Assembly: GCF_011044495.1 (NCBI RefSeq)
Contig: NZ_CP049143.1
Location: forward strand, 2,976,001 to 3,040,000
DNA from: Roseimicrobium sp. ORNL1
GTDB lineage: Bacteria > Verrucomicrobiota > Verrucomicrobiia > Verrucomicrobiales > Verrucomicrobiaceae
Direction of reading: 5' to 3'
Length of the DNA stretch: 64,000 nt
Positions within the stretch are counted from its first letter, which is position 1, and every line of letters starts with the position of its first letter. The notes below the pieces were generated by a model that saw nothing but the letters and a program-made list of their open reading frames with translations, was not told the origin of the DNA and did no database searches. The translations under genes were made by a program, and so were the position numbers. Below are positions 32,029 through 56,332 of this stretch, one piece after another.

Positions 32029-32373
32029 GTGGGGAAGCGCGACAAGCAGCGGCTGACAGGAGGTTAGGCGTCCCGCCTGACAGTGGGCGTTAGACCTCCG
32101 GTCTGACCGATGCTGACGTGACTTGGTGTTTCTGTTTTGGTGAAGAGTTCCCGTCCGGCAGGTGTGGGGCTTGTGGAGTTTTTCTGTGGGATGCCGTGCG
32201 GGGCTCCTTTTTTAAGAGATGCTGGTCAGACCGGAGGTCTAACCTCCACTGTCAGGCGGGGACGCCTAACCTCCTGCTGAGTGCGCGCACTTTCTCCAAA
32301 GAATTTTGCCATTGCGCTCGTAGTGGCAATCCGCTGGAATCCCACAGCACCACCTCACTCCCTTTTGCCTCGC
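32029..32373. repeat. 345-bp gap with a 52-bp inverted repeat
   Basis: Bases 32057-32108 and 32224-32276 are nearly perfect reverse complements; the arms start CAGGAGGTTAGGCGTCCC and hold GACCTCCGGTCTGACC, and the ~115-bp middle has no gene. The arms differ by about one indel and two or three substitutions. It is another MITE-like element of the kind seen at several other gaps in the window. Confidence 0.82.
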
Positions 32374-36557: not shown

Positions 36558-36720
36558 GGGGAGAGTTGATGGCTGAGGGGCGATGGTTGATAGCCTAACA
36601 GGAATGCATTCAGCGATTTCCCAACTGCTGATGTCCTATATGGACGGCGCCTTCGATTCACCTGCACTTGGATGCTTTGTGTTTCAGGCTATCAACTATC
36701 AACCATAGACCATCAACCCG

Positions 36721-40454: not shown

Positions 40455-41309
40455 TTAGTTTAGGTTTCTGGATTGGGTCTCAAACTGATTGGGGGTGAGG
40501 TAACCGATGGCGGAGTGCTTGCGCTGGTTGTTGTAGTAGCCCTCGATGTACTCAAAGAGTTCCAGTCGTGCATCGGTGAGATCTTCAAAGCGGCCTCCTT
40601 GAAGCATCTCGCGCTTGAGGGTACCCATGAAGGACTCTGTCCACGCATTGTCATAGGGGTTGGCTCGCCCCGACATGCTCTGGCGCAGGCCGGCACGCGT
40701 GAGCACGGAACGGAAGGCAGTGCTGCCATACTGGCTGCCCCGGTCGCTGTGGAAGACAATGCCGCTGGCTTTGGGATGGGTTTGCAGGGCTTGTTCCAAG
40801 GCATGGACGACGAGTTCTGCACGCATATGTGATGCGAGACTCCAGCCCACAATGCGACGCGAGCCCAAATCCATGACCACGGCCAGATAGAGCCAGTTTG
40901 CCGTAGTGGGAATGAAGGTGATGTCTGCGACCCAGGCCTCGCCGGGCTTCTGCGGCACGGGCTGCTGGGCCAGCAGATTGGAAGAGGGACGGTCTGCCCG
41001 GCCATCGCTGGTTTTGGGCAGGTAGTTCTTGGGTTGGATGGCCTTGAGGCCCCGTGTTTTGAGGATGCGGCGCAGCCTCGAAGGCGCACACACGATGCCA
41101 TGGTCACACAGCTCCTCATGGATCCTGCGGTAGCCATAGCGGCACCGGTTGCGTTTGAAGATCTCCTCGATGAGTTCCCCCAGGCGAGCGTCTTGCTCAT
41201 GGCGTGAGATAGGCTTTGCCGCATGGTAAAAGCTGCTGCGGGGCAGCTCCAGGACGTCGCAGATCTTGCGCACACTCCCACCGGTCTGGCGCTGGAGTTG
41301 CAGGATCAT
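40455..41309 (-). CDS. IS3-family transposase OrfB (DDE domain)
   Basis: 284 residues. The N-terminal HTH_21-like part (CRYGYRRIHEELCDHGIVCAPSRLRRIL) precedes the integrase core with the catalytic residues in WVADITFIP (Asp), VFHSDRGSQYGS (Asp) and TESFMGTLKREML (Glu). It ends NNQRKHSAIGYLTPNQFE, as usual. It overlaps OrfA by ATGA and is likely also made as an OrfAB fusion by a -1 shift. Confidence 0.95.
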   Translation of the reverse strand: MILQLQRQTGGSVRKICDVLELPRSSFYHAAKPISRHEQDARLGELIEEIFKRNRCRYGYRRIHEELCDHGIVCAPSRLRRILKTRGLKAIQPKNYLPKTSDGRADRPSSNLLAQQPVPQKPGEAWVADITFIPTTANWLYLAVVMDLGSRRIVGWSLASHMRAELVVHALEQALQTHPKASGIVFHSDRGSQYGSTAFRSVLTRAGLRQSMSGRANPYDNAWTESFMGTLKREMLQGGRFEDLTDARLELFEYIEGYYNNQRKHSAIGYLTPNQFETQSRNLN

Positions 41310-41626
41310 TTCGCGAGTTTGGACGGCGATGGCGTGCCCAGGATGACAGCGGCCTTTTTTAAAATGTCGTTCTCCAGGCGCAGGTTGGCGATTTCACGCC
41401 GCAGCCGGTGCAGCTCGTTGGCTTCGCCCTCCTCGCCTCCGGCTCGTTGGTCTGCGCCCACGAGCTGCACCGGCTGCCTTTGGGACCGGGTCCAACGGTA
41501 AAGGATGCCAGTGCCAATGCCGAGTTCTTCAGCCACCTCGGACACACTCTTGCCCATGCGGACCAACTCCACGGCATGGGTTTTAAAATCACTGCTGTAA
41601 CGCTTTTTTCGGGTCACGGTACTCAT
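41306..41626 (-). CDS. IS3-family OrfA (HTH and leucine zipper)
   Basis: 106 residues: KKRYSSDFKTHAVELVRMGKSVSEVAEELGI is the HTH_Tnp_1 part and ELHRLRREIANLRLENDILKKA is the zipper. An A6G slippery run (41354-41360 on the minus strand, read as A AAA AAG inside LKKA) is the normal place where ribosomes shift -1 to make the OrfAB transposase. Confidence 0.93.
   Translation of the reverse strand: MSTVTRKKRYSSDFKTHAVELVRMGKSVSEVAEELGIGTGILYRWTRSQRQPVQLVGADQRAGGEEGEANELHRLRREIANLRLENDILKKAAVILGTPSPSKLAK
41354..41360 (-). promoter_or_regulatory. Programmed -1 frameshift site of the IS3 element
   Basis: The heptamer A-AAA-AAG sits in the OrfA frame about 50 nt before its stop, where IS3 elements usually shift. 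The following bases are G+C-rich and could pair. Confidence 0.7.
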
Positions 41627-41805: not shown

Positions 41806-44800
41806 ATGCATTTTTTCACCGAGGAAAAATCCGCCGCGCATAATCAGACCAACAAGGGGTGCAATCGCCCCATATCAGGCAGGTTGCGGAGCTGGGTTAT
41901 GGCCCTGTCGCTGGCGTTCGGACTCATAGGAGGGGCTCATCTTGCTCAAGGTCAATCCACCATGGTTAATAAGCGAATCGCCGCTGGCTGGAATCACACG
42001 GTGGCCATTGGTGAAGGTGGAACGGTATGGGCATGGGGAATGAACAATATTGACGAAATGTGGGGGGACCCCAGTAGTAGACTTTCGGATTATCTGGAAC
42101 CCGTCCCTGTGAGGATCGGCACCCTGACGAATGTGATATCTGTCGCGGTCGGGGCCCATCACAATGTCGCGCTCAAGGATGATGGCACGGTATGGGTTTG
42201 GGGCGTCAATGGTGGCTGGTGGGGCAGCAATGGTGGCGGGATCTTGGGAGATGGCACGCTCAACAATTCGGCTACGCCAGTCCAGGTCACTGCCTTGAGT
42301 GACATTGTGGCAGTGGCAGCCGGATATGCCCACACCTTGGCACTCGATGAAAATGGCACCATCTGGGCATGGGGAGCCAATCAGAATGGCCAGCTCGGAG
42401 ACGGGAGCACCACGCAGAGGTTGCATCCGGTAGCACTCACCACCATCACCGGAGTCAAAGCTATTGCCGCAGGTGACAAATTTTCTCTGGCCATCAAAGA
42501 CAGCGACGGTTCTGTGTGGGCTTGGGGTGCGAACGGATATGGACAACTCGGCAATGGCACCACCACCGAACAGCATGCGCCGGTGCAAGTTGGCACTCTT
42601 TCGAATGCCGTTCAAGTGGCCTGCCGCGGACAGTGGTATGGTTTGGGGCATGCTATCGCCCTACTTTCTGACGGCAGTGTGTGGACTTGGGGATGCAATC
42701 AATCTGGTGAGCTGGGACTCGGGAATTACACCTCCAGTTCTTCACCAATGCCGGTGCCGGGATTGTCAGGAATTGTGGAAGTGGATGCAGGGCCATGGTC
42801 AAGTACGATGGCACTGAAGTCGGATGGTACCGTCTGGGCCTGGGGCTTAAACTTCAATGGACAACTTGGCAACGGCACCAAGACCTCGAGCAATACGCCA
42901 GTACCGGTGAATGCACTGAGCAATGCGGTGGCCATCGCCGCCGGATATGATCATTCGGCTGCCATTGCGGCTGACGGAAAGGTATATACGTGGGGGAATC
43001 ACGCCGCCGCGCAACTGGGAGACGACAGCACCTTTGCTTCCCACGCGCCGGTCCAGTCGACTGGGGTTGGTGCCGTGAAACAGGTGGTTACAGGGAATGC
43101 CCACACGCTGGCTTTAAAGCATGACGGTACTGTTTTGGCATGGGGCTTCAACCGCTTCCACCAGTTGGGTGATGGCACTTCACAGAGCAAAGCTAATCCA
43201 GTGCCTGTGACGGGATTGACTCATGTAATCGCGACGGCAGCCAATGCCCACCACTCTGTAGCTGTGAAGGATGATGGCACGGTATGGTCGTGGGGGAACA
43301 ACAGCTCTGGGCAATTGGGAGACGGCACTACCACGAACCGCTCTACGCCCGTACAGGTGAGCGGTATCACTGGTGCTTCTAAGGTAGCTGCGGGCTACTA
43401 TCATGGACTGGCTCTCAAAACTGACGGAAAAGTTCGCGCTTGGGGAGATAATTCCAAAGGGCAGTTGGGAGATGGTACGACTATCACTCCGCTGACGTCC
43501 GTGGAGGTTAGTGGGCTCACTAATGTCACTGCCATTGCGGCAGGAGGCGAGCATTGCCTTGCTTTGAAATCTGATAAGACGGTGTGGGCATGGGGAAGCA
43601 ACTATAGCGGTCAGCTGGGAAACAACAGCTGGGATCCCAGTTCCGTGCCCGTGCAGGTCCGTGTCCAAGGCGGCGGTGTTCTCACCGATGTGATCGCTGT
43701 CGCTTGCGGGTACGAGCACAGTATGGCTCTGAAGTCGGATGGCACGCTGTGGGTGTGGGGAGCCAACGACCAAGGCCAGCTTGATGACGACACCAACTCG
43801 TGGCTCAACGTTGCTACTCCGGTCAGCGGCTTGAACGATGTCGTCTCTATCGGGGCTGGAGAATATCATTCGCTCGCGGTGAGGTCGAATGGTGAGTTGT
43901 GGGCAAAAGGAGGATCATCATTTGCTGGAACGTTAGGGGATGGCAGCACGGGACACCACCTTACCCACGTCTCAGGTGGGGGCGGTTTCACCGTCGCCCT
44001 CAAGGAGGATGGCACTCTAATTGCCTTCGGCGGGAACGACTCGGGGCAATTTGGTGAAGGACTGCCGTGGAACATAGAAGCCTATTCCCCTGTACAGGTT
44101 AAAGGCCTGAACGTTCTCCACGAGGCGCCCGCAGTGGAGATCACGAGCCCGGCTTCGAGCCCCGTCACCATGTCCCTGGGGCAAACCCAATCGATAACGG
44201 TGACCGAAATTCCAGGAGAAACCCAGCTGGAATCCGTATCGCTGTACCATCACGGTGTGCTGGTCGGTACGGATTCAACTCCTCCCTATACCTTTGGGTT
44301 CACCCCTTGGACGTACGGTAATTATGAATTGCGTGCCATCGGCACGGACAGCTTGGGGTTGGAAACGGCGCGTTCTCCGGCTCTTTCCATCCAGGTTTCC
44401 TATAATAGCGATTCCGATACTTTGCCGGATTGGTGGGAGATAGCAAATTTCGGCACCCTTACCCATGATGCAAGTGGCGACGTCGATGGAGATGGAATGA
44501 CTAATGGGGAGGAGTTCCTTGCAGGACTCAATCCTTCGCATTCAAATGCCCACGAAGACGATGACCACGATCGGTATCCCAATATTTTCGAGGTAAAGAA
44601 TGGATCGGATCCGCAGGATGCGAGCAAAGTTCCAGAGCCCCAGTACGTGGTGGATCCCAGTGGGGGTGGGACGCATACGGCAATTGCCGACGCCGCATGG
44701 GAAGCTGGCGACTATGAGATCATCCTGGTGAAAAAGGGTACCTATACGGGGTGGGATAATGTGGGATTCACAGTCTACAGCAGCGCCTTGCTTATTTCGG

Positions 44801-47800
44801 AAGACGGTCCCGCCTCTACTATCCTCGATGGTGAGGGAGAAAGATATGGTATCGACCTATGGGAGAGCGCAGTAGTAGAAGGCTTTACAATCAGGAATAC
44901 ATTCTACTGGAACGCTGTTACCGCCTGGGAGGGGAGTCCGACGATTGTTAACTGCTTGATTCAGAATCATTTCACTGAAGGCTCGTCAGGGGCCATTGCC
45001 AATTACGGTGCAGATCTAATGGTGATGCACTGCACCGTTGCTGGGAACTACAGTCATGGAATCTATAGCGATAGTGGCTCCACCACTGTCTGCAATTCAA
45101 TTTTCTGGAATCGCCTCGGCACTGAGTTTCGGGTGGGAGACTTTGCAACTCTGGATGTGTCGCACTCGATTGTAAGGGGCGGTCATGCCGGCACTGGGAA
45201 CCTTTCCTCTGATCCTTTGCTCACGAAGAGCGGAACCTTGAAGGCTGGCTCACCCGCCATTGACGCAGCCGTTTTCTATTACACCTCCGGCAGGGATCTG
45301 CACCATGAACCCCGCCCTGTGGGAATGCTGCCGGATATTGGTGTGGATGAATGGGTCGACACCGATGCAGACCATCTCCCCGACGCCTGGGAACTAGAGA
45401 CTTTCAGCAGTTTGTCCCACAATGGAATTGGGGATGGTGATGCAGATGGAGTGAATGATCTGGATGAATATGAGTCTGGCACAGATCCTCTTGTGGCTGA
45501 TTTGGACACTGATGGCGACGGGATGACCGATGCCGAGGAGATTGCTGCAGGTCTAAACCCTTCGCGTTCCGATGCCCAGGAGGATGCGGATCTAGATCGC
45601 TACCCCAATATCACTGAGGTGAAGCACGGAACCGACCCTTTTGATGCAACAAAGATTCCTCTGCCACAGTACATCATCGATCCCGATGGGCCCAGCTCTT
45701 CCAACGAACTTCAGGACGCGGCAGAGGACGCCAGGGGCTATGAAATCATTCTGGTAAAACCCGGCACGTATTCAGACGATGATAACCTCGAGTTTGTCCT
45801 GCGTGACAATGTGTTGATGATTTCAGAAGAAGGCGCTGCCGCGACCATTATTGATGGTGAAGGGGAAGATTCCTACATCACTCTCTATGGGAATTCGGTG
45901 TTGGAGGGGTTCACCATCAAAAACACCTCTAACGACTACGGGGCGGTTTGCGCTTCAGGTGGCAGCCCGGCGATCATTAACTGCTTGTTCCTGAACAATT
46001 CCTCTGAGGAAGGCGGAGCAGCCATCTTCAACATGGGTGCTGATTTGATGGTAATGCACTGCACCGTTGCCGGGAACGACAGCCATGGGATCTATGGCGA
46101 CGGCGGAACCACCGGTGTCTACAACTCCATCTTCTGGAATCCGCTTTCGACCGAGTTCCTGTTTCAGGACCCGGGGAGCCTGACCGTAGGTCACTCCATT
46201 GTAAGGGGCGGTTATACTGGCACGGGCAATCTTTCTGCGGATCCCTTGCTCACACAGAGTGGAATTTTGAAGCCGGGTTCTCCTGCAATTGACGCGGCGG
46301 TTGCCTATTATACCTCAGGCAGAGATCTTCACAATGAACCCCGCCCAACCGGGACTCTGCCGGACATCGGTGTGGATGAATGGCTCGACTCCGACTCAGA
46401 CAACATGCCGGACGCTTGGGAACAGGAGACTTTTGGTGACCTGACTCATGATGGAACCGCAGATGGTGATGGAGATGGGTTGAATGACTTAGGCGAGCTT
46501 GTGTTTGGCTCGAATCCTGCCATAGCAGATGAAGATGGCGATGGGGCGAATGATGGAGATGAAGCTGCTGCAGGAAGCAATCCTTCGGTTACCGACACCG
46601 ACGGTGATACTATGCCCGACGGCTATGAGATTCACCAAGGCCTGAGTCCGACCGATCCCAGGGATACGCTGGACGACAAAGACGGTGACCGTGTGCCTAA
46701 TCTCTATGAATATCACCGGGGCACGGCGGCTGGAACTCCGGAAACCCTGGTGCCAGACTTCATAGTTGATGGCGAGGGGGGAGGGACCCACACGACAATC
46801 GGCGCCGCCATTACTGCAGCCAACATTGCCGTCGACGACTGGCAGATTGTCTTTGTCAAGCAAGGCAGCTATGCCGAGGCCGTAGTTTTAAGTAACAAAC
46901 GCATGGTACTGCTGGGTGAACTGGGTCGTGAAGAGGGAAGTAAACTGCCCATCATCGAATCTCCTTCGTACACTCCTTCGGTCACTCTCAATGTAGGAGA
47001 TGTCGTGATGGATGGGTTTGTGATCCGGCACCCGAGTTCCACCTATGGGCGAGGTGTCGAAGTTTTTGCAGGCGATACGGAGGCAGTGAAGTTTAGTAAC
47101 TGTTTCATCACGTCCAACCTTTCTTCTGATGGATCAGCGATCAATGTGAATTCCTCGGAGTGCAGGCTTGACCACTGCACCGTGTTTGGCAATAGATCAC
47201 CGATTTTTCTGGGTCCGGAGCCAATCGGAAGCAACGCCATCTATGTGTTCAACAACGGAAGGCTGCGTTTGCGCAATACCATCGTGTGGAACACAGATGT
47301 CCCCACGGGTGGGGCGCAAATCGAAGGCAATGAGGGTACACAGATTGAAGTGTTCAATTCGATTGTCCTCGGTGCTGAGCATGGCGCCTCGGGGGCTGAT
47401 CCGCTGCTAACTCTGACAGGACATCTTCTCCCTGGAAGTCCGGCCGTTGATCCCACCGGTGGGCTAACCTTCTCGATTCCCTCATTGGACGTAAATGGTG
47501 AGGCTCGTACCAGCCCACCGGACATTGGTGCGGATGAATGTATCAACAGCGATGCCGACGGTATGCCAGACTGGTGGGAATTGCTCCATTTTAGCGACCT
47601 GAGCCATGACGACACTGATGACGGCGATGGTGATGGACTCGGTGATTTGGATGAGCTTATATTCGGATCGGATCCTTTAGTCGCGGATGCCGATGGCGAC
47701 GCGGCCAATGACGGAGTGGAACGTACGGCTGGCACCAACCCGAATGATGCAGATACTGATGATGATGGCATCCCCGACGGATACGAGATAACCAAGGGCC

Positions 47801-49491
47801 TCGATCCGTTCGAGCCCAGAGACTCGCTGGACGATAAGGATGGAGACCGCGTGCCGAATATTTACGAGTACCATCGTGGTACAGACGCTGCGGTGGCGGA
47901 GGTGCTGGTCCCGGACATAACTGTCGATCCAGACGTCAATCCAGAGACAGCGACCGTCAAAAAGACCGTTTTCGATGCGGTTGAAGCAATCAATAGTCAG
48001 CCAGGTGATTGGAAGGTCATCTACGTAAAGAAGGGGCAGTATTGGGCACCCGATACAACGATTAGATTGGAAGACAAAAGCATTGCCCTACTTGGCGAGC
48101 GTACATTGAATCCTCCTTTGCTTGGAGCTGGGCTGGCACCTGCGTTGACTATCAGCCATTCTGATGTGGTCGTCGATGGCTTCGTCATTCGGCATGAGCT
48201 GCCTGAGTTGAGCTTCATCGGCATATCGGTGGGTCTTCCTTCTGATCAATCGCGAGCGAGAGTGGTTAATTGCATCATCAGGGACAATAATGAGAGCAGG
48301 GGGGCGGGCATGTACATCTCCAAGGGTGAGTGCCTTGTTGATCATTGCACATTCTTTGGTAACAATGCTATACCGAGTTGGTCCGCTTCACCTCCGGTGG
48401 AGGGTCTTGGTATCGCGGTTGATGCCTCGGCTAAATTGCGACTGCGCAACTCGGTGGTTTGGAATACGGGCGCACCCGCAGGAAGCTCGCAGATCTGGTC
48501 CAGCGAATTGGCATCTGTAAATGTCATAAACAGTATTGTTCTTGGGGGAGAATTTGGGGCAATAAGCAGCAATCCACGTCTGGACCCGGCATTTGGCCTC
48601 CTGCGTCTGGGAAGTTCTGCAATTGATGCGGGAACGTCGCTGGGGTCGGGTGGACCAACGGTAGATTTTCAGGGTAACCCGAGAGGTTCCAGCCCTGATA
48701 TTGGGGCGGATGAGTTCATTGATACCGATAGCGATGGGCTTCCGGATGTCTGGGAACAGCATTTCTATTCAAGCCTTGGCTATTCCGAGACCTATGATGG
48801 TGATGGAGATGGGCTGGCGAATCTCTACGAATTGGCTTGGGGAATGAACCCAACGCAACCAGACACCGACAATGATGGAACGACAGATCTTGTAGATGTG
48901 CTGGCTGCGGAGTGGCCAAACGAATTCCCGGATTCTGACAACGATGATCTCGCCGATGCGTGGGAGCAGTATTTCTTTGGCAACCTTTCGCAATTGGATA
49001 CCGGTGATCCGGATGGGGATGGATTGACCAATTACTATGAAATGAGATTGGGTTACTTTCCAAATGACGCGGATTCTGATGATGACAACACTTCAGACTT
49101 TTTCGAAGCTCTGAACATCTCGGGTCCGATTCTCCCGGAGGATACCGGCGACGATGATGGTGATAGCATGAGTAACGTCAGGGAGTTGATTGTCGGCACG
49201 AATGCAAGCGTGGCGGATACCAACGGTGACGGACTTCTGGACGGGATGTCCTTGAGCATCGGCTTTAACCCGCTCTCAAGCGATAGTGACGGCGATGGAG
49301 TGAGTAATCTTGACGAAATCGCCAATGGCACCAGCCCGCTTGTGGCAGACACGGACGGCGACGGTGTGAACGATGGGGTGGATGTCTTCCCATTGGATCC
49401 CACCCGGTCTACAGCGCCGTCCGGAAGCCCGATGGATACGACTCCCCCTCAAATCTTCCTGGACTCGCCCGGTAGCGCGACGCCCCTCTAA
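41806..49491 (+). CDS. Giant exported RCC1-propeller / beta-helix / calcium-motif protein
   Basis: 2561 residues. A signal peptide is near residues 25-49 (SWVMALSLAFGLIGGAHLAQG); an alternative start is M32. Residues ~55-765 hold about 14 RCC1 repeats (AGYxHxxALxxDGTVWAWGxNxxGQLGDGT), enough for two seven-bladed propellers. An Ig-like domain follows (~770-865). Then come four modules, each starting with Asp-rich calcium-type motifs (DxDxDGxxD, thrombospondin-3/dockerin-like) and followed by a pectin-lyase-like right-handed helix (GFTIRN, VMHCTVAGN, SPAIDA, PDIGVDE). The end (~2310-2561) is again Asp-rich calcium motifs. The last words TTPPQIFLDSPGSATPL look like the start of another Ig domain cut short. 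It is 10 bases upstream of the Rhs gene. Probably secreted or surface-bound. Confidence 0.88.
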   Translation: MHFFTEEKSAAHNQTNKGCNRPISGRLRSWVMALSLAFGLIGGAHLAQGQSTMVNKRIAAGWNHTVAIGEGGTVWAWGMNNIDEMWGDPSSRLSDYLEPVPVRIGTLTNVISVAVGAHHNVALKDDGTVWVWGVNGGWWGSNGGGILGDGTLNNSATPVQVTALSDIVAVAAGYAHTLALDENGTIWAWGANQNGQLGDGSTTQRLHPVALTTITGVKAIAAGDKFSLAIKDSDGSVWAWGANGYGQLGNGTTTEQHAPVQVGTLSNAVQVACRGQWYGLGHAIALLSDGSVWTWGCNQSGELGLGNYTSSSSPMPVPGLSGIVEVDAGPWSSTMALKSDGTVWAWGLNFNGQLGNGTKTSSNTPVPVNALSNAVAIAAGYDHSAAIAADGKVYTWGNHAAAQLGDDSTFASHAPVQSTGVGAVKQVVTGNAHTLALKHDGTVLAWGFNRFHQLGDGTSQSKANPVPVTGLTHVIATAANAHHSVAVKDDGTVWSWGNNSSGQLGDGTTTNRSTPVQVSGITGASKVAAGYYHGLALKTDGKVRAWGDNSKGQLGDGTTITPLTSVEVSGLTNVTAIAAGGEHCLALKSDKTVWAWGSNYSGQLGNNSWDPSSVPVQVRVQGGGVLTDVIAVACGYEHSMALKSDGTLWVWGANDQGQLDDDTNSWLNVATPVSGLNDVVSIGAGEYHSLAVRSNGELWAKGGSSFAGTLGDGSTGHHLTHVSGGGGFTVALKEDGTLIAFGGNDSGQFGEGLPWNIEAYSPVQVKGLNVLHEAPAVEITSPASSPVTMSLGQTQSITVTEIPGETQLESVSLYHHGVLVGTDSTPPYTFGFTPWTYGNYELRAIGTDSLGLETARSPALSIQVSYNSDSDTLPDWWEIANFGTLTHDASGDVDGDGMTNGEEFLAGLNPSHSNAHEDDDHDRYPNIFEVKNGSDPQDASKVPEPQYVVDPSGGGTHTAIADAAWEAGDYEIILVKKGTYTGWDNVGFTVYSSALLISEDGPASTILDGEGERYGIDLWESAVVEGFTIRNTFYWNAVTAWEGSPTIVNCLIQNHFTEGSSGAIANYGADLMVMHCTVAGNYSHGIYSDSGSTTVCNSIFWNRLGTEFRVGDFATLDVSHSIVRGGHAGTGNLSSDPLLTKSGTLKAGSPAIDAAVFYYTSGRDLHHEPRPVGMLPDIGVDEWVDTDADHLPDAWELETFSSLSHNGIGDGDADGVNDLDEYESGTDPLVADLDTDGDGMTDAEEIAAGLNPSRSDAQEDADLDRYPNITEVKHGTDPFDATKIPLPQYIIDPDGPSSSNELQDAAEDARGYEIILVKPGTYSDDDNLEFVLRDNVLMISEEGAAATIIDGEGEDSYITLYGNSVLEGFTIKNTSNDYGAVCASGGSPAIINCLFLNNSSEEGGAAIFNMGADLMVMHCTVAGNDSHGIYGDGGTTGVYNSIFWNPLSTEFLFQDPGSLTVGHSIVRGGYTGTGNLSADPLLTQSGILKPGSPAIDAAVAYYTSGRDLHNEPRPTGTLPDIGVDEWLDSDSDNMPDAWEQETFGDLTHDGTADGDGDGLNDLGELVFGSNPAIADEDGDGANDGDEAAAGSNPSVTDTDGDTMPDGYEIHQGLSPTDPRDTLDDKDGDRVPNLYEYHRGTAAGTPETLVPDFIVDGEGGGTHTTIGAAITAANIAVDDWQIVFVKQGSYAEAVVLSNKRMVLLGELGREEGSKLPIIESPSYTPSVTLNVGDVVMDGFVIRHPSSTYGRGVEVFAGDTEAVKFSNCFITSNLSSDGSAINVNSSECRLDHCTVFGNRSPIFLGPEPIGSNAIYVFNNGRLRLRNTIVWNTDVPTGGAQIEGNEGTQIEVFNSIVLGAEHGASGADPLLTLTGHLLPGSPAVDPTGGLTFSIPSLDVNGEARTSPPDIGADECINSDADGMPDWWELLHFSDLSHDDTDDGDGDGLGDLDELIFGSDPLVADADGDAANDGVERTAGTNPNDADTDDDGIPDGYEITKGLDPFEPRDSLDDKDGDRVPNIYEYHRGTDAAVAEVLVPDITVDPDVNPETATVKKTVFDAVEAINSQPGDWKVIYVKKGQYWAPDTTIRLEDKSIALLGERTLNPPLLGAGLAPALTISHSDVVVDGFVIRHELPELSFIGISVGLPSDQSRARVVNCIIRDNNESRGAGMYISKGECLVDHCTFFGNNAIPSWSASPPVEGLGIAVDASAKLRLRNSVVWNTGAPAGSSQIWSSELASVNVINSIVLGGEFGAISSNPRLDPAFGLLRLGSSAIDAGTSLGSGGPTVDFQGNPRGSSPDIGADEFIDTDSDGLPDVWEQHFYSSLGYSETYDGDGDGLANLYELAWGMNPTQPDTDNDGTTDLVDVLAAEWPNEFPDSDNDDLADAWEQYFFGNLSQLDTGDPDGDGLTNYYEMRLGYFPNDADSDDDNTSDFFEALNISGPILPEDTGDDDGDSMSNVRELIVGTNASVADTNGDGLLDGMSLSIGFNPLSSDSDGDGVSNLDEIANGTSPLVADTDGDGVNDGVDVFPLDPTRSTAPSGSPMDTTPPQIFLDSPGSATPL

Positions 49492-49501
49492 ATCCTCCCT
49501 C

Positions 49502-52500
49502 ATGACAACCAAGGTACTTAGAACTGCAGGCTTGCTGTGTCTGATTGTGAATGCTGGCTTGTGCTATGGCCAGATCGAGAATCAGCCCAAAGTCGAACCT
49601 TTTACGCCACCACCACCGGTAAGAACCAAAGCGCCATCGAAGAAGGTGGCGCGCGTAGCTCCGTTGCAAAAGGCGGAGACCAAGGTGGTGCCACTTCGAC
49701 TGTCTCCGAAGTCAACCAAGGAGGAGGTGATGGCGTTCCAGGGTTTCAGGGAGCCGCTTATGCCCGTTGATGGTTCAGATTCGCCTTCCGACCGTGCGGC
49801 ATTGATGAGCGCGCTAGGGGGGTGGCTGAAACGTTCCTCTACGGACGATTACACGAAGTTGGAGGAATTCCTGGTGAAGCATCCCAGATCGGTGTGGACA
49901 CCAGGGGTTCGGCTTAATCTTGCGTATATCTACTACGAAACAGGTTACTTTTCCAAGGCGCTGGCTTCCTGGCAGACACTGTGGGAAGAAACCAAGGGTC
50001 TAAAGAACCCAGAGGGGGGAAAGCTTGCCACCATCGCTGCATCGGAGTTGGCTGTCATGCTTGCGCGCGTCGGGCGCATGGAAGAACTTGAATCCCTGTT
50101 GAAGGAGGTGGAAAGCCGGAGCTTCAGAGGCAACGCACTGATCCAAATCGACCGGGCTCGCGAAGGTCTTTGGAACATGAAGAACCGCCCGGGCATCGCG
50201 TTTCGTTGTGGCCCCTACGCGCTAAATCTGATCTACGTACAAAAGTACTCCAAGGCGAAGGAAGGGTTCTTGGACGACAAGGAGGTGGCGTCACCTCGTG
50301 AGGGATTTTCGCTCACCAGGTTACGCGAGTTTGCAGAGGCGAAGCTTGGCATGACCATGCAGGTTGCGCGCCGTTCACCGGGAAGTCGAGTCATCACCCC
50401 GGCTGTGGTTCATTGGAAGGTCAATCACTTCGGTGCCTTGCTTCGGGAGCAGGATGGCAATTATCTGGTAAAGGATCCCACCTTCGGAAACGACACTTGG
50501 GTCACCTCCGCCGCCCTCGACTCAGACAGCTCCGGATATTTTCTTGTTCCAGAAGGTCCCTTGCCGGAAGGCTGGAGCAAGGTATCCATGTCTGAGGGAG
50601 CTTCGCTCTTCGGCAAGGGACATTCAGGCAACAGCGATCCTGATGAAACCACGGGTTGCGATCCTGTGACTTGCGACGCATGCGAAGATGGTCACGGCAT
50701 GGCCACCTATCGATTCCACTCGATGCTTGCTGGACTTCACATTTTTGACATCCCCGTGGGCTATTCCGCAGCAAGAGGACCCTCGGTCGCATTCAAAGTT
50801 TCGTACAACATGAAGGAGGCTGGGCAGCCATCCACAATGACTTTCACCAACTTCTCCCCCCAGTGGGAGAATGAATGGTGCTCCTATCTAGAGGATAACC
50901 CGGGAGTCCCTGGAGCAAATATCAAGGTGAATTTGCCAGGGGGCGGCGCGGAGACCCACACCGGATACAATGCGACTACCCTGATCTTTGGTAAGAACCG
51001 CCGTTGGGACACCATCCTCGCGAGGCTTACTGCGAATTCATATGAACGCCGCATGCCCGACGGCTCCAAAATGGTCTATGCTCACGCCATCGGCACTACG
51101 GGACCGGCGCGAAAGGTGTTTCTTTCCCAGGTGGTCGACCCTCAAGGAAATGCTGTAACACTGAACTACGACACGACACCTGGTTACGAAACAAGGTTGC
51201 TGGAGATTGTTGATGCAACTGGCCTCGTAACCACATTGCAATATCAGGAGCCGGGCGAACCATACCTCGTGACGGAGATCGAAGACCCGTTTGGAAGATC
51301 AGCGCAGTTCACTTATCAAACCGTCTCCGGAGCCAAAAGGCTGACGACAATCACGGATGTTATTGGGTTGCAGTCCTCCTTTGAATACGACGGGAGCGGA
51401 CTGATTACCGCCCTTGTCACCCCCTATGGGCGAACCACGTTCGCCTTTGGCAGTCCGAATATCCCTTATGGATTGATTCGCTGGATTGAGGCCACGGACC
51501 CTCAAGGAGGCAAGGAGCGCATTGAGTATCATCTGGGGTCGTACATGACGAAAATCCCGAACAGAATTCCACTTACTCAAGTTCCCCTTGATACCGGATA
51601 CAATCTCTACATTGAGGACATGGATGATCGCAATACGTTCTATTGGAGTCGCAAAGCCATGTATCATGCTGCGGGCGACTACTCCAAAGCGCATTTATAC
51701 CATTGGTTGCAAGTGGATGGAGCGGATGTTGCGTCTGGAGTCTTGGAAGGTGAAAAGCCAGCCTATGGAAGTCGGGTATGGTACCGCTATCCCGGGCAAA
51801 CAGAGATCAACAGCCTGGGTACTAGCGCCAAGCCGATTCTCAGTGCCCGGTTAATAGAAGATGAAAGCGGCGCACATGTCTCAGCATTCAGTCAGTTCGA
51901 GTACAACGATGCAGGGAATACCACGCGAATGATAGACGAGTTGGGCAGGGACACAGCTATCGAATATGAAACCAATTTGATCGACGTAAAGGCGGTCAAA
52001 CAAAAGGTAGGGGGCGTGTATCAAACTCTGAGTTCGGCAACCTATGACCCCGGGTATCCTGCTCACCGGATGGAGACAGTCACTGATGCGGCTGGCCAGA
52101 CAACCACCTTTACTTACAACGCCTTTGGTCAAGTGGCGACAGTGACAAACCCGTTGAATGACATCACCACTTTCACCTATGAGACTAATGCGGCCAATGA
52201 TGGCTACGGTCAGGTGAAGCTTATCACGGGGGCTCTCCCGGGTGCGACTACTGCTTTCACTTTTGACGGATTTCAAAGGATTCGCACCGTCACGGACTCC
52301 AGCGGGTACACCACGACTTTTGACTACGATGACATGGATCGCGTGACCCTGATCACCTATCCCGATACGACTACAGAACAAATCGTGTACGAAAAGCTTG
52401 ATCTGTTCGCACAAAAGGATCGGGAAGGCCGATGGACACGGACATGGCACAATGCTCTCCGGAAACCTGTTCTCATCGTCGATGCGCTGTCTCGCACCAT

Positions 52501-54772
52501 GCAGCTTGAGTGGTGCAAGTGTGGAGCACTTCAAAAGCTCGTGGATGGAAGGGGCAATCTCACCCGATGGCAGTATGACGAACAGGGACGCAATACGGCG
52601 AAGTTCTATGCCAACGGCAAGACCACTGCTTTCACGTATCAGTCACTGAGTGGTCGCTTGAGTTCCATCACTGACAGTAAGGGACAAGTGAAGCATTTTA
52701 GCTACTTTCTGGATGGTCAGGTGAAGCAGGTGTCCTACGGCAATGCCACGGTGGCCACAGCTCCGGTGAGCTTCACTTACGACTCGGAATATCCGGGTCG
52801 AGTTTTGACTATGACCGATGGCGTTGGGACCACGAGCTACGCCTATCATCCTGTGGGCTCCTTGGGCGCGTTGCGGGTGAGTACGGAAGATGGTCCTCGT
52901 GCGGGTAATTCGGATCTGATTGCTTACACCTATGATGCCCTTGGGCGGATTAAGACACGCAACATCGGCTCGGTAGGCAATGAAAGTCTGATCACTTGGA
53001 CTTACGACTCGCTCGGACGGCCCGTGGGTGAAGTCAATAACTTAGGGGCCTTTGTTTACAATTACGTGGCCGAGACGGAAAGACTTGCTGATGTTGAGTA
53101 TCCAAATGGCCAGAAAACTTTGTTCGACTATTTCAATGCTGTCGGTGATCACCGGCTCAAGACAAGTGAAAATCTGGGCGATGGCACCAATCCGGCGAGC
53201 ACCTTGAGCCGATTTGACTACACGTATACGCCGAATGGCAACTTGGTCACCTGGCAACAGCAGGTGGGGAGTTCCCCGGCCACTAGGTTCAACTTGCTGC
53301 ACGACGCCATTCAACAGCTTACCGCAGCCACTTTGGTGGAGGCGGCCAGCCCTACTACGATTCTTGAGCGTTCGTCTTTCCAGTATGATCGCAGCGGGAA
53401 CCGCGTGTCAAATCAGAAGGGCAACGTTGTCGTGCAAGCTGCATACAATCAGCGAAATCAGCTGACGGCCACCACTGGCGGGGGCAAGCTTCTTGTTGAA
53501 GGATGCACAGACGAAGCTGCATCGGTGACGGTGAATGGCGTCGCTGCGACCACTGACACGTCCAACAACTATCAGGCTTGGATCGACGTGGTTCCCGGGG
53601 CCAACACGGTCACAGTGGAGGCCAGCGACTTTGCTCCAGTGCCTAACGCGACATCCAAATCTTGGTTAGTCACTGTAACAAGCCCAGGATCTCGCAGCTT
53701 TACCTATGATGACAATGGAAACACCCTGACGGATGGGCTGCGGACATTTGAATGGGATGCCGAAAACAGGCTGGTCAAGATCATCCAAGGAGTCAACGTA
53801 TACGAGTTCGCCTATGATGGTATAGGGCGTCGCGTCGCTCAAAAGGTGAATGGAACTTGGGCAGAACAGTGGGTGTGGAGCGGGTTGATATTGTGTGAGG
53901 AACGGGACAATGCTGGCAGTGTCACAAGGCGATTTTATGGCGGTGGTGAAGAGTGGGTTGGTGGGTCAAATGCCGGCGACTATTATTACACTCGAGACCA
54001 CTTGGGGAGTGTTCGCGAACTGACTGACAACACGGCTGCGATACGGGCTCGATATACTTATGATCTCTGGGGCCAGCGCACTCAAATGGGTGGAGACCTG
54101 AACACACAATGGGGCTACACAGGGCACTTTCATCATGTGAGTGGGGTGGTTCTGGCGCCGTTTCGAGCGTATGATCCGGGGACCGGCAGATGGCTGAGCG
54201 AGGATCCAATTGGCGAGCTTGGGGGCGTAAACCTTTATGGTTACGTAGGGAATAGCACAGACGGTTCGGTCGACTTTCTGGGTTTAGTTGACATGAATTT
54301 TTTCAGCCCGAGCGAAAAAAGAATATACGATAGTGCCAATCGGGCTGCTAATGGACTATTAGAAGTTATCACTGTAGGAGGGCATGGGAATCCGATGGGC
54401 ATGCTAGACACTAATCGCAGGGACTTGTCCCCCCAAAAACTTGCCAGCCTCATAAGAGCTCACCCAAAATTTGACGGCAAGCGACCCGTCTATCTGATGT
54501 CTTGTGGCACTGGCGCTACACGGAGGGATGGCTTGCCGAACTTTGCGCAGCAGTTGGCGAATGAGTTGGGTGTAACGGTGTGGGCTCCCGATCAGTATAT
54601 TTGGTATTGGGATGATGGTTATACCAATATCGGGAATGCCAATATTTGCCACCTTAGTGATCTTGGCCCGCCAAGGGGTGAGAACTGGGGGCATTATTAT
54701 GAGCATAAGCCAGTTATGAAAGCTGGCTCGAGACGCCCAATTTTTCCACCAAGGATCCCCGAGGGAATATGA
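49502..54772 (+). CDS. YD-repeat/Rhs polymorphic toxin with C39-like N-terminal and caspase-like C-terminal domains
   Basis: 1756 residues from the ATG at 49502. Signal peptide residues 1-23. A TPR-like stretch (~105-230) precedes a C39-peptidase-like domain with C236 (RCGPYAL), H309 (VNHFGALL) and D325 (VKDPTFG). YD repeats (~450-1320) have typical phrases such as TYDSLGRPVGEVNN. A glucodextranase/Ig-like insert (~1323-1410) lies before the Rhs core (YTRDHLGSVRELTD, APFRAYDPGTGRWLSEDPIGE, NLYGYVGNS). The ~160-residue variable tip has H1628 (TVGGHGNP) and C1668 (YLMSCGTG), followed by FAQQLANELGVTVWAPDQY, a His/Cys pattern like clan CD (C80/caspase-fold) proteases. The next gene overlaps by ATGA and is the immunity candidate. 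Confidence 0.88.
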   Translation: MTTKVLRTAGLLCLIVNAGLCYGQIENQPKVEPFTPPPPVRTKAPSKKVARVAPLQKAETKVVPLRLSPKSTKEEVMAFQGFREPLMPVDGSDSPSDRAALMSALGGWLKRSSTDDYTKLEEFLVKHPRSVWTPGVRLNLAYIYYETGYFSKALASWQTLWEETKGLKNPEGGKLATIAASELAVMLARVGRMEELESLLKEVESRSFRGNALIQIDRAREGLWNMKNRPGIAFRCGPYALNLIYVQKYSKAKEGFLDDKEVASPREGFSLTRLREFAEAKLGMTMQVARRSPGSRVITPAVVHWKVNHFGALLREQDGNYLVKDPTFGNDTWVTSAALDSDSSGYFLVPEGPLPEGWSKVSMSEGASLFGKGHSGNSDPDETTGCDPVTCDACEDGHGMATYRFHSMLAGLHIFDIPVGYSAARGPSVAFKVSYNMKEAGQPSTMTFTNFSPQWENEWCSYLEDNPGVPGANIKVNLPGGGAETHTGYNATTLIFGKNRRWDTILARLTANSYERRMPDGSKMVYAHAIGTTGPARKVFLSQVVDPQGNAVTLNYDTTPGYETRLLEIVDATGLVTTLQYQEPGEPYLVTEIEDPFGRSAQFTYQTVSGAKRLTTITDVIGLQSSFEYDGSGLITALVTPYGRTTFAFGSPNIPYGLIRWIEATDPQGGKERIEYHLGSYMTKIPNRIPLTQVPLDTGYNLYIEDMDDRNTFYWSRKAMYHAAGDYSKAHLYHWLQVDGADVASGVLEGEKPAYGSRVWYRYPGQTEINSLGTSAKPILSARLIEDESGAHVSAFSQFEYNDAGNTTRMIDELGRDTAIEYETNLIDVKAVKQKVGGVYQTLSSATYDPGYPAHRMETVTDAAGQTTTFTYNAFGQVATVTNPLNDITTFTYETNAANDGYGQVKLITGALPGATTAFTFDGFQRIRTVTDSSGYTTTFDYDDMDRVTLITYPDTTTEQIVYEKLDLFAQKDREGRWTRTWHNALRKPVLIVDALSRTMQLEWCKCGALQKLVDGRGNLTRWQYDEQGRNTAKFYANGKTTAFTYQSLSGRLSSITDSKGQVKHFSYFLDGQVKQVSYGNATVATAPVSFTYDSEYPGRVLTMTDGVGTTSYAYHPVGSLGALRVSTEDGPRAGNSDLIAYTYDALGRIKTRNIGSVGNESLITWTYDSLGRPVGEVNNLGAFVYNYVAETERLADVEYPNGQKTLFDYFNAVGDHRLKTSENLGDGTNPASTLSRFDYTYTPNGNLVTWQQQVGSSPATRFNLLHDAIQQLTAATLVEAASPTTILERSSFQYDRSGNRVSNQKGNVVVQAAYNQRNQLTATTGGGKLLVEGCTDEAASVTVNGVAATTDTSNNYQAWIDVVPGANTVTVEASDFAPVPNATSKSWLVTVTSPGSRSFTYDDNGNTLTDGLRTFEWDAENRLVKIIQGVNVYEFAYDGIGRRVAQKVNGTWAEQWVWSGLILCEERDNAGSVTRRFYGGGEEWVGGSNAGDYYYTRDHLGSVRELTDNTAAIRARYTYDLWGQRTQMGGDLNTQWGYTGHFHHVSGVVLAPFRAYDPGTGRWLSEDPIGELGGVNLYGYVGNSTDGSVDFLGLVDMNFFSPSEKRIYDSANRAANGLLEVITVGGHGNPMGMLDTNRRDLSPQKLASLIRAHPKFDGKRPVYLMSCGTGATRRDGLPNFAQQLANELGVTVWAPDQYIWYWDDGYTNIGNANICHLSDLGPPRGENWGHYYEHKPVMKAGSRRPIFPPRIPEGI

Positions 54773-55050
54773 AACGCCTCCAAATGTCACTTGTTTGCAT
54801 GCTGTGGTTGTTGTTGGTTAATTGTAAGGAACAGCCGCCAACAACAGGTAGGGAAGAATTTTTTATAGAAGCCGGTGAGCGCAAAGCGTTGGAAGGGACG
54901 GCGCTTGCTGGAGATATGGTGAGCTCGGAACGGTTATATAAGTACTACTTATACTGCGTATATGAACAGGATAAGGCTTTATACTGGTTGAAAATTGCTG
55001 AAAAAAATGGCAGCGAAGATGCTCGAAGTTGTTTGAGGCATATGCCTTGA
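54769..55050 (+). CDS. Sel1-like lipoprotein, putative immunity protein
   Basis: 93 residues. The signal MKRLQMSLVCMLWLLLVNC ends in a lipobox (LVNC). The mature part has one Sel1-like helical unit (YCVYEQDKALYWLKIAEKNGSEDARSCLRHM). The start overlaps the stop of the Rhs gene, ATGA, so translation is coupled. Small Sel1 or lipoprotein partners are common immunity proteins (family knowledge). The G+C is clearly low, as in the toxin tip. No other gene candidate for immunity is next to it. Confidence 0.78.
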   Translation: MKRLQMSLVCMLWLLLVNCKEQPPTTGREEFFIEAGERKALEGTALAGDMVSSERLYKYYLYCVYEQDKALYWLKIAEKNGSEDARSCLRHMP

Positions 55051-55139: not shown

Positions 55140-55799
55140 TCAATTCAACCCCACATGGACATCCAGCAGACCATGGAGAGCTTCGGTCCTTTTCGGTAAC
55201 TCTGCGAGACTGCCGTCTTTCAGAGACTCCGTGAACGAGTTGAAAAGACTCCACACATTCCGCTCTTCAAATACCGCGTGACGAGGTTTCCGCCCTTCGT
55301 GCAGCACAGAAGGAATCAGACGGTTGCCGCACACGCCGACATCAGTAGCCCGAATGACAAGGTCGTGGGCTTGGATGTCGTCGAGATCAGCTTTCTTGTA
55401 GGCGGCGATGCGCTTGTCTTGGTGATGCCATTTCTCCATCAATTGACCAATGGCTCTACCGGTGATGAAAGGCAGGTCACGAACGATGTGTCGGGTGTGT
55501 TTCCGGGCGAATTTGACCTCTCCAGAAAACGACAAATTATCACAAATGAAACAACTGGCGCCGGCAACGAGACCTGCAGGAAAGGTTTTGTCGTGGCTGT
55601 TCCTGAGGCCGAGAACCCAGGTGTAATCGTCTGAGGATTGTTTGCCTTGCACCTCCATCAGACCAAAATACCTGCTTCCATTGTGGCTGAGGCTGTGAGC
55701 GACAGTGCCAATGGTGAGGTTGGTCTTGGAGAGGGTGGTCTGGACTTCGCTGACGTGGTCTCTGTTTAGGTCCTCGGTCGGTCTAGGGGGTTCTGCCAT
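55140..55799 (-). CDS. DUF932-like plasmid/phage protein, short
   Basis: 219 residues from the ATG at 55799. The block YFGLMEVQGKQSSDDYTWVLGLRNSHDKTFPAGLVAGASCFICDN and then FSGEVKFARKHTRHI is the core of the DUF932 family, found on plasmids and phages; function unknown. The family is usually ~270-350 residues, so N-terminal parts may be lost or the start may be upstream. It is the last gene inside the island and lies opposite to the toxin. Confidence 0.7.
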   Translation of the reverse strand: MAEPPRPTEDLNRDHVSEVQTTLSKTNLTIGTVAHSLSHNGSRYFGLMEVQGKQSSDDYTWVLGLRNSHDKTFPAGLVAGASCFICDNLSFSGEVKFARKHTRHIVRDLPFITGRAIGQLMEKWHHQDKRIAAYKKADLDDIQAHDLVIRATDVGVCGNRLIPSVLHEGRKPRHAVFEERNVWSLFNSFTESLKDGSLAELPKRTEALHGLLDVHVGLN

Positions 55800-56332
55800 G
55801 TTCCGCCACAGGGTCATTCACTGGCGGCAGTTCTCGGTCAGGGATCGTTGAGCGCGAAGCTGGTTCTTTCTGGCCAACCGGCTTGGATAAGTGCCTGCGG
55901 ACTGGGCCCTCCCTGCAGATTCTCTACCTCGCGGCGGGTGTCGCTACTTCCATACAGCGTCCGCGGAGTAGCCTTGTTGTACCAGAGGCCGCACGCACGC
56001 ATTGGATGTAGTCTGGAGTGGAAGGCGTAAGGTACTTGCCAGCGTCGCTTCAAGGCGGTCCTCCGCTAACGGGCCCCGGCTTGTGACAATCATTCGCAGT
56101 CACGGTAGTGACAGCTACCAAGACAGCAAGCACCGTGAGGAGCAGGATAGTCTTCACTCCGCCGCCCGACCACAGCTTGCGCTCGCTCGGAAATTTCGGG
56201 CTAGGTTCTGAAAAGTTCTGATGGTGAGTGATTCTTATTAACCCTTGGAAAAACACTTGTCTCGATTCTCCTAGTGAAATGGCCTCTTAAGGATTCATAA
56301 TCTTCGAAAAATGAGCTTGTTGCTAGGTTCGA

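Follow-up and report, generated by a model that had tools for sequence, protein, structure and literature searches.

A giant exported protein and its C39-Rhs neighbour in Verrucomicrobiota: a proposed two-component toxin joined by a split Ig domain

Introduction

To our knowledge, little is known of how secreted Rhs toxins that belong to neither the T6SS nor the Tc systems locate their targets and arrive at them. A locus of Roseimicrobium sp. ORNL1, in which a gene for a giant exported protein stands immediately before an Rhs gene, raises the question of whether the products of two such neighbours act together and, if so, by what means they might be joined. The locus was analysed within a stretch of 64,000 nucleotides, referred to here as the window. 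The reading favoured by the data presented below, to which a probability of roughly 0.7 is assigned, is that the products of the two genes make up a single secreted polymorphic toxin of two components, and that a swappable exoprotein is docked on the Rhs cage through the donation of a strand. No prior description of an RCC1–Rhs link, of the tail of the giant protein, or of an Rhs protein with a donor strand or with a C39 domain was found in the literature searched.

Architecture of the giant exported protein

The features of the locus are collected in Table 1. An earlier note on this DNA, made from the sequence alone, had described an exported chain of 2,561 residues with about 14 RCC1 units, an Ig domain, four beta-helix modules and calcium-type repeats. 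All of these elements were recovered. Four features that the note did not mention came to light as well: the constant C-terminal tail of the giant, a complementary, incomplete Ig insert in the Rhs protein, the C39 domain, and a probable immunity gene that overlaps the Rhs stop. The ORF contains no internal stop; Pfam returned 13 significant stretches for RCC1 and 14 for RCC1_2, a single Big_7 domain above its cut-off (residues 775-844) four Beta_helix stretches and six TSP3_bac stretches; and NCBIfam gave four choice-of-anchor Q stretches above cut-off. A motif scan located 13 RCC1 unit starts, between residues 58 and 722 of the giant, and a fourteenth unit at residue ~272, which escaped the scan pattern, was seen by eye. 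Fourteen is the number expected for two seven-bladed propellers, which the units probably form.

Table 1. Features of the giant/Rhs locus, in coordinates of the window
Feature	Positions	Strand	Basis
IS3-type transposase pair, 180 bp upstream of the giant gene	40455..41626	-	
Giant exported protein P0001, 2,561 aa	41806..49491	+	ORF, Pfam, NCBIfam
N-terminal extension and Sec-type signal peptide (..SWVMALSLAFGLIGGAHLAQG)	41806..41955	+	Hydrophobicity peak, residues 29-49
14 RCC1 units, probably two seven-bladed propellers	41977..44100	+	Pfam RCC1/RCC1_2, motif scan
Complete bacterial Ig domain (Big_7)	44128..44337	+	Pfam
Beta-helix module 1 (choice-of-anchor Q), TSP3-like lead	44407..45375	+	Pfam, NCBIfam, BLASTN
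Beta-helix module 2; 68% DNA identity to module 1	45376..46395	+	NCBIfam, BLASTN
Beta-helix module 3	46396..47670	+	Pfam, NCBIfam
Beta-helix module 4	47671..48720	+	Pfam, NCBIfam
TSP3-type calcium repeats of the giant	48721..49434	+	Pfam
C-terminal tail DTTPPQIFLDSPGSATPL: putative orphan Ig strand A, proposed docking strand	49435..49488	+	
Exported Rhs (YD-repeat) protein, 1,756 aa	49502..54772	+	Pfam, NCBIfam; AlphaFold2 of core
Peptidase C39 domain of the Rhs protein	50207..50551	+	Pfam, alignment
Proposed acceptor: Ig-like insert of glucodextranase-B type, strand A missing	53477..53683	+	
RHS-associated core domain	54059..54286	+	TIGR03696
Variable C-terminal tip (predicted toxin), GHG and SCGTG motifs	54293..54769	+	
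Predicted immunity protein: Sel1-like lipoprotein, ATG overlapping the Rhs stop (ATGA)	54769..55050	+	

Helix modules 1 and 2 had been taken for near-copies at the DNA level and the gene for one that grows by internal duplication. The first statement proved too strong, since BLASTN gave 67.8% identity over 990 bp. The duplication is therefore real but old, and a recent one is excluded by this degree of identity. Two copies of the motif VMHCTVAGN are indeed present, at 45022 and 46051, i.e. 3-4 bases from the positions originally given (45025 and 46055). Modules 3 and 4 gave no DNA self-match in the same BLASTN comparison and are more diverged than modules 1 and 2.

Export of the giant is predicted from a hydrophobic signal peptide at residues ~29-49. 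A hydrophobicity scan of the full length revealed no further clear transmembrane stretch, and no anchor was found. The Rhs ATG follows 10 bases past the stop codon of the giant, as had been noted. As both proteins carry export signals, a cytosolic location of the giant is unlikely; it may be a surface fibre or adhesin, as the earlier note supposed.

The Rhs protein, its tip and the gene behind it

The Rhs protein opens with its own signal peptide. A TPR-like stretch and then the C39 domain come next, within the N-terminal region (window 49502-50600), and are followed by YD repeats, the RHS-associated core and the tip. These assignments derive from matches to PF05593 for the repeats (144.9 bits), TIGR03696 (56.6 bits, cut-off 32.5) and PF03412 for C39 (30.4 bits, cut-off 22). 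In an alignment of the C39 domain, the Cys, His and Asp residues were invariant in 13 of 13 relatives. An AlphaFold2 model of the Rhs core (pLDDT 84.7, pTM 0.79) found its best PDB matches among Rhs, teneurin and Tc shells (Foldseek E values down to 2.7e-52), and places the Ig-like insert at residues 886-954 of the cage.

Tips are exchanged between otherwise similar proteins: over 1,695 aa, the Rhs proteins of two relatives (G002 and G012) share 83% of their residues, yet no similarity exists between their tips. The tip in the window matched nothing in Pfam or among PDB sequences, and its GHG and SCGTG motifs provide only a lead towards a caspase-like protein. The lipoprotein ORF behind it has 93 residues. 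Sel1-like lipoprotein ORFs of similar size stand behind homologous tips in the window (G000, 54769-55050) and in G002 (L125:1507-1836), and both are probable immunity proteins despite a very low identity to each other (23% only, E value 1.2).

Truncated Rhs ends, with the Ig insert near their start, were also observed in arrays 3′ of full-length Rhs genes (L189/L236 in G326:C4, L206 in G191:C169 and L241 in G602:C13). Such arrays are probable stores of spare toxin tips.

Conservation of the gene pair

Two profiles, A1 from the last ~195 residues of the giant and A2 from the C39 region of the Rhs protein, were run against 289 genomes from the phylum and 68 from the family. The giant/C39-Rhs unit is present in one copy in the 7.96 Mb single-contig genome from which the window derives. 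In relatives, the closest homologues of the C-terminal part of the giant lie directly 5′ of the closest Rhs homologues. All of the A1 matches that reached the last columns of the profile adjoin an A2 match and lie before the C39-Rhs gene; the one exception stands 423 bp from a contig end. The flanks, when read, yielded more pairs, in which the giants are diverged. Head-to-tail pairs in the Verrucomicrobiota number 36, the later class sample (see below) counted in. A giant followed directly, and on the same strand, by a C39-Rhs gene was found in G000, G002, G012 (three copies), G016, G008, G074, G168 and G042, and in the further genomes G110, G191, G188, G200, G338, G326, G334 and G346. At loci with an assignable ATG, the Rhs gene starts between -4 and +73 bp from the stop of the giant. 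A few of the exported partners that precede C39-Rhs comprise only about 230-310 residues.

The ectodomains of the giants differ widely. RCC1 repeats occur in 8 of the 36 pairs (G000, G042, G074, G373, G387, G368, G433 and G584), beta-helices in G002, G012 and G191, LamG domains in G008, G191, G433, G436, G579 and G550, fn3 domains in G042 and G509, and TSP3 repeats in many. It is apparent that the giant and C39-Rhs genes constitute a conserved pair, in which the C39-Rhs partner and the last ~18 residues of the giant are the constant parts. The order RCC1-helix-Rhs, which the earlier note proposed to look for in other Verrucomicrobiota, is conserved as a giant followed by C39-Rhs, but not as RCC1 followed by helix, the N-terminal modules being swapped between genomes. 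The suggestion that the giant works with the Rhs toxin gains support from the recurrence of the gene order and from a single-chain RCC1-TSP3-Rhs protein in a relative (L149). It also withstands the check that the note had set for it, as the two genes do stand side by side in other genomes.

Single-chain proteins of this kind, which run from RCC1 through Ig and TSP3 to YD repeats and a tip in ~2,500-4,000 residues, were seen in the same family at L149:2781-11804 (G012), G002:C182, G002:C26 and G012:C1:4459228-4470144. L149, the one inspected at full length, is without C39 domain, tail or Ig insert. Pairs in the reverse order, i.e. a C39-Rhs gene followed by one for an exported TSP3 protein, were observed at L132:10959-14597, L133, L134 and L139 (all G021) and at L137:416-5812 (G013); these have neither tail nor insert. 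In the two that were read at full length (L132 and L137), the TSP3 protein begins, after its signal peptide, with a single YD-like strand (VQYAYDADGNVVSRT), which may be another docking device.

A single gene split by a frameshift was considered and excluded. Two ORFs are found in relatives too, a separate signal peptide is present on the Rhs protein, and what is encoded in frame 5′ of the Rhs ATG is unlike protein of this family.

A proposed split Ig domain

Immediately before its stop codon, the giant in the window ends in DTTPPQIFLDSPGSATPL, and giants at other loci end in DTTAPTIILWEPGDAVKLP, DVTSPVITLIKPPGAVLVP or DTTPPVIIIIEPVEGALP. This tail of ~18 residues, the motif of which has an A or G near its end, reads like strand A of an Ig domain that is then cut off. 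In the Rhs protein, the insert sits in a YD hairpin and begins directly with strand B, and C39-Rhs proteins without a tail partner have a turn of 5-9 residues at the same site. Where other proteins of the family contain a complete relative of the insert, strand A is present in cis, with the sequence D..xPxVAITSP situated 8-14 residues before strand B. That sequence is absent before strand B in the Rhs inserts and is carried by the tails of the giants, which indicates that the insert lacks strand A of its own and suggests that the giant supplies it. Some of the inserts (G110, G191, G188 and G200) are weak matches. A profile of the tail, which is too short for such a comparison, gave no match among solved structures.

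When modelled alone, the insert was predicted to have five strands (AlphaFold2, pLDDT 95.8). Among solved structures, the one that matches it best is glucodextranase domain B (1ug9; Z 8.4, rmsd 2.1 over 65 residues, from chain residue 706), which counts as support and not as proof because middling Z scores are common among Ig folds. Isolated solved domains align to the insert only from residue 15 (3pe9_B) or 24 (4kdv), so that their first strand has no counterpart in it. From the strand lists and aligned ranges of these single-chain models, we infer an empty strand-A groove on the insert; a YD strand in cis might fill it.

The late start of the Pfam alignments (columns 14-22 of Glucodextran_B) was discarded as proof of a missing strand, because a complete domain in G297 also matches late, from column 19. 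That match, a complete Ig domain in a TSP3 protein, and a fragment in G015 were not counted as inserts. Gene fission inside an Ig domain was rejected as the sole origin of the arrangement, since the Rhs protein does not start with the remainder of the domain but has it ~1,330 residues further in.

Co-occurrence of tail and insert

In the discovery set, tail and insert were both present in 19 of 19 cases and both absent from eight of eight other C39-Rhs loci (G021 four times, G013, G337, G040 and G329). Fisher's test gave p = 4.5e-7, or 7e-4 when counted by genera (11 and 4), with relatedness uncorrected in both. Insert-positive Rhs genes without a neighbouring giant belong to tandem arrays or border on contig breaks (G027:C107, the fourth copy in G012, and G018). 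Within the family, matches to the insert profile were bimodal: all of those below 1e-20 fell in C39-Rhs proteins or their tip cassettes, and the next stood at 4.5e-9.

For a prospective test, 384 genomes of the class were searched with the insert profile alone, and the flanks of new matches were then fetched. A locus was testable if it held a full-length C39-Rhs gene with its 5′ end on the contig. In all 14 of 14 new loci, an upstream ORF ended in the tail; five of these giants had RCC1 repeats. A strict tail motif was found in 22 distinct ORFs of at least 500 aa, a set enriched for C39-Rhs loci by the manner of its collection, and 21 of them precede C39-Rhs (L146 via one intervening gene); L025 is the sole unrelated ORF.

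These data bear on the strongest of the alternatives, namely that the operon is conserved and its products cooperate, but that the tail is a signal for secretion, sorting or maturation, for example a substrate of C39, and not a docking strand. Known sorting signals are C-terminal, as is the tail, and exporter C39 domains cut short peptides; such a role would be consistent with the invariance of Cys, His and Asp in C39 and with an A or G close to the end of the tail motif. The presence of the tail, however, follows that of the strand-A-less insert and not that of C39, as the eight insert-less C39-Rhs loci without a tail indicate, and its sequence is a known one, that of an Ig strand A. A signal function is rated as unlikely, and docking of the tail on the insert is preferred.

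Genomic context and origin

Local G+C content at the locus falls to 0.52-0.57, as against about 0.60. The IS3 element is 92% identical to sequence in another genome of the genus, G001, and the flank at 30-37.7 kb is syntenic on one G001 contig. The giant gene has no counterpart in that genome. The giant/Rhs unit was probably gained or lost as an island.

Other elements were noted in the vicinity. A fragment of a DUF932 (phage/plasmid-type) gene lies just 3′ of the toxin unit (window 55140-55817). Short inverted repeats of about 50 bp and 36 bp (window 32057-32280 and 36680-36720), which have dozens of dispersed copies on both strands of G001, look like REP-type intergenic elements. G001 itself encodes a 4,704-residue RCC1 and beta-helix protein (L130:3411-17522), which an Rhs gene of the non-C39 type follows at a distance of a few kb.

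The low G+C content, the adjacent IS3 element and the absence of the giant gene from G001 would also be expected if the two genes were linked only by co-inheritance on a mobile island and the tail were a functionless remnant of a truncated Ig domain. Against this, the truncation point and the tail persist across many families of the phylum although all that precedes them has been exchanged, and a functionless remnant would not stay the same length; this explanation appears improbable. Least probable is that the two act apart, the giant as a free-standing adhesin or S-layer-like protein and the Rhs protein as a secreted toxin in its own right, for although similar RCC1, TSP3 and beta-helix giants without a neighbouring C39-Rhs gene are common in the same family, it is the tail-bearing giants that precede C39-Rhs, and single-chain RCC1-Rhs proteins exist.

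Discussion

The preferred reading, that of a two-component toxin joined by strand donation, can be set out as follows. The giant and the Rhs protein would be exported separately, the Rhs cage folding round its own tip. The last ~18 residues of the giant, as strand A, would then complete the incomplete Ig domain of the cage (strands B-G, in the YD hairpin), which would place an ectodomain of the propeller, lectin-like or beta-helix kind on the toxin container. The sequences themselves establish that the two genes adjoin, that the tail and the strand-A-less insert occur together, that ectodomains and tips vary, and that both proteins have export signals; docking is proposed from the sequence and co-occurrence of tail and insert. 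The giant, which here comprises RCC1 propellers, beta-helices and a calcium-binding stalk, would be the targeting or scaffolding part, its ectodomain providing surface attachment or target binding. After export, parts may be trimmed or set free by C39. Competing cells would be the recipients of the tip, and the lipoprotein would shield the envelope of the producer from it. The surface location, the order of these events, the role of C39 and the killing function are likewise conjectural parts of the scheme. With a constant joint, ectodomains and toxin tips can be swapped independently.

The Rhs protein shares its YD repeats, cage fold and RHS-associated core with T6SS Rhs effectors (RhsA, Tre23, Tse15) and WapA-like secreted Rhs proteins, and resembles Rhs polymorphic toxins also in its exchangeable tip and the small gene behind the tip. 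It differs from them in having a Sec signal peptide and an N-terminal C39 domain, without PAAR or other T6SS adaptors, and in the addition of a conserved exported partner gene and of a strand-A-less Ig insert near the core end. Neither a PAAR/VgrG-type adaptor nor an N-terminal transmembrane region of the kind that characterizes T6SS Rhs effectors was found in it by Pfam or hydrophobicity analysis. The modules of the giant are ordinary members of the choice-of-anchor Q, RCC1 and TSP3 exported proteins of Verrucomicrobiota, to which the proposed docking tail and the fixed Rhs partner are added.

The BC component of Tc (ABC) toxins (matches 4o9x and 6h6e) likewise combines an Rhs shell with a separate large targeting partner and beta-propellers. 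Propellers belong to Rhs shells in both Tc toxins and teneurins (PMC8636562). In the present system, by contrast, the propellers are of the RCC1 type and are located in the partner, and the partner is variable. No Pfam match to a TcA-like pore, SpvB or an integrin-type propeller was obtained in the giant or the Rhs protein.

In the donor-strand complementation of chaperone-usher pili, an incomplete Ig fold is offered its missing strand by another exported protein. The proposed joint has the same incomplete fold and a strand from another protein, but the missing strand is A, the donor is C-terminal and the partners are operon neighbours; no chaperone or usher was seen. In Tse15-VgrG15 and Tle1-VgrG, toxin and carrier are coupled when a five-stranded Ig-like or TTR domain, which belongs to the carrier, takes up a strand from the toxin (PMC11461821). 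Here, the acceptor would be in the Rhs cage and the donor would be the extreme C-terminus of the carrier, and the system is not a T6SS.

The broader proposal, that secreted two-gene Rhs toxins occur across the phylum, with the split Ig domain as a universal joint and with targeting heads and toxin tips that evolve independently, is held with less confidence, at somewhat better than even odds. If it is true, a strand-tag/acceptor pair of this type could serve for protein joining, in the manner of SpyTag/SpyCatcher though without an evident covalent bond. It would also give a role to giant proteins of unknown function, and targeting in the Verrucomicrobiota would be explained by a joint that stays fixed while heads and toxins vary.
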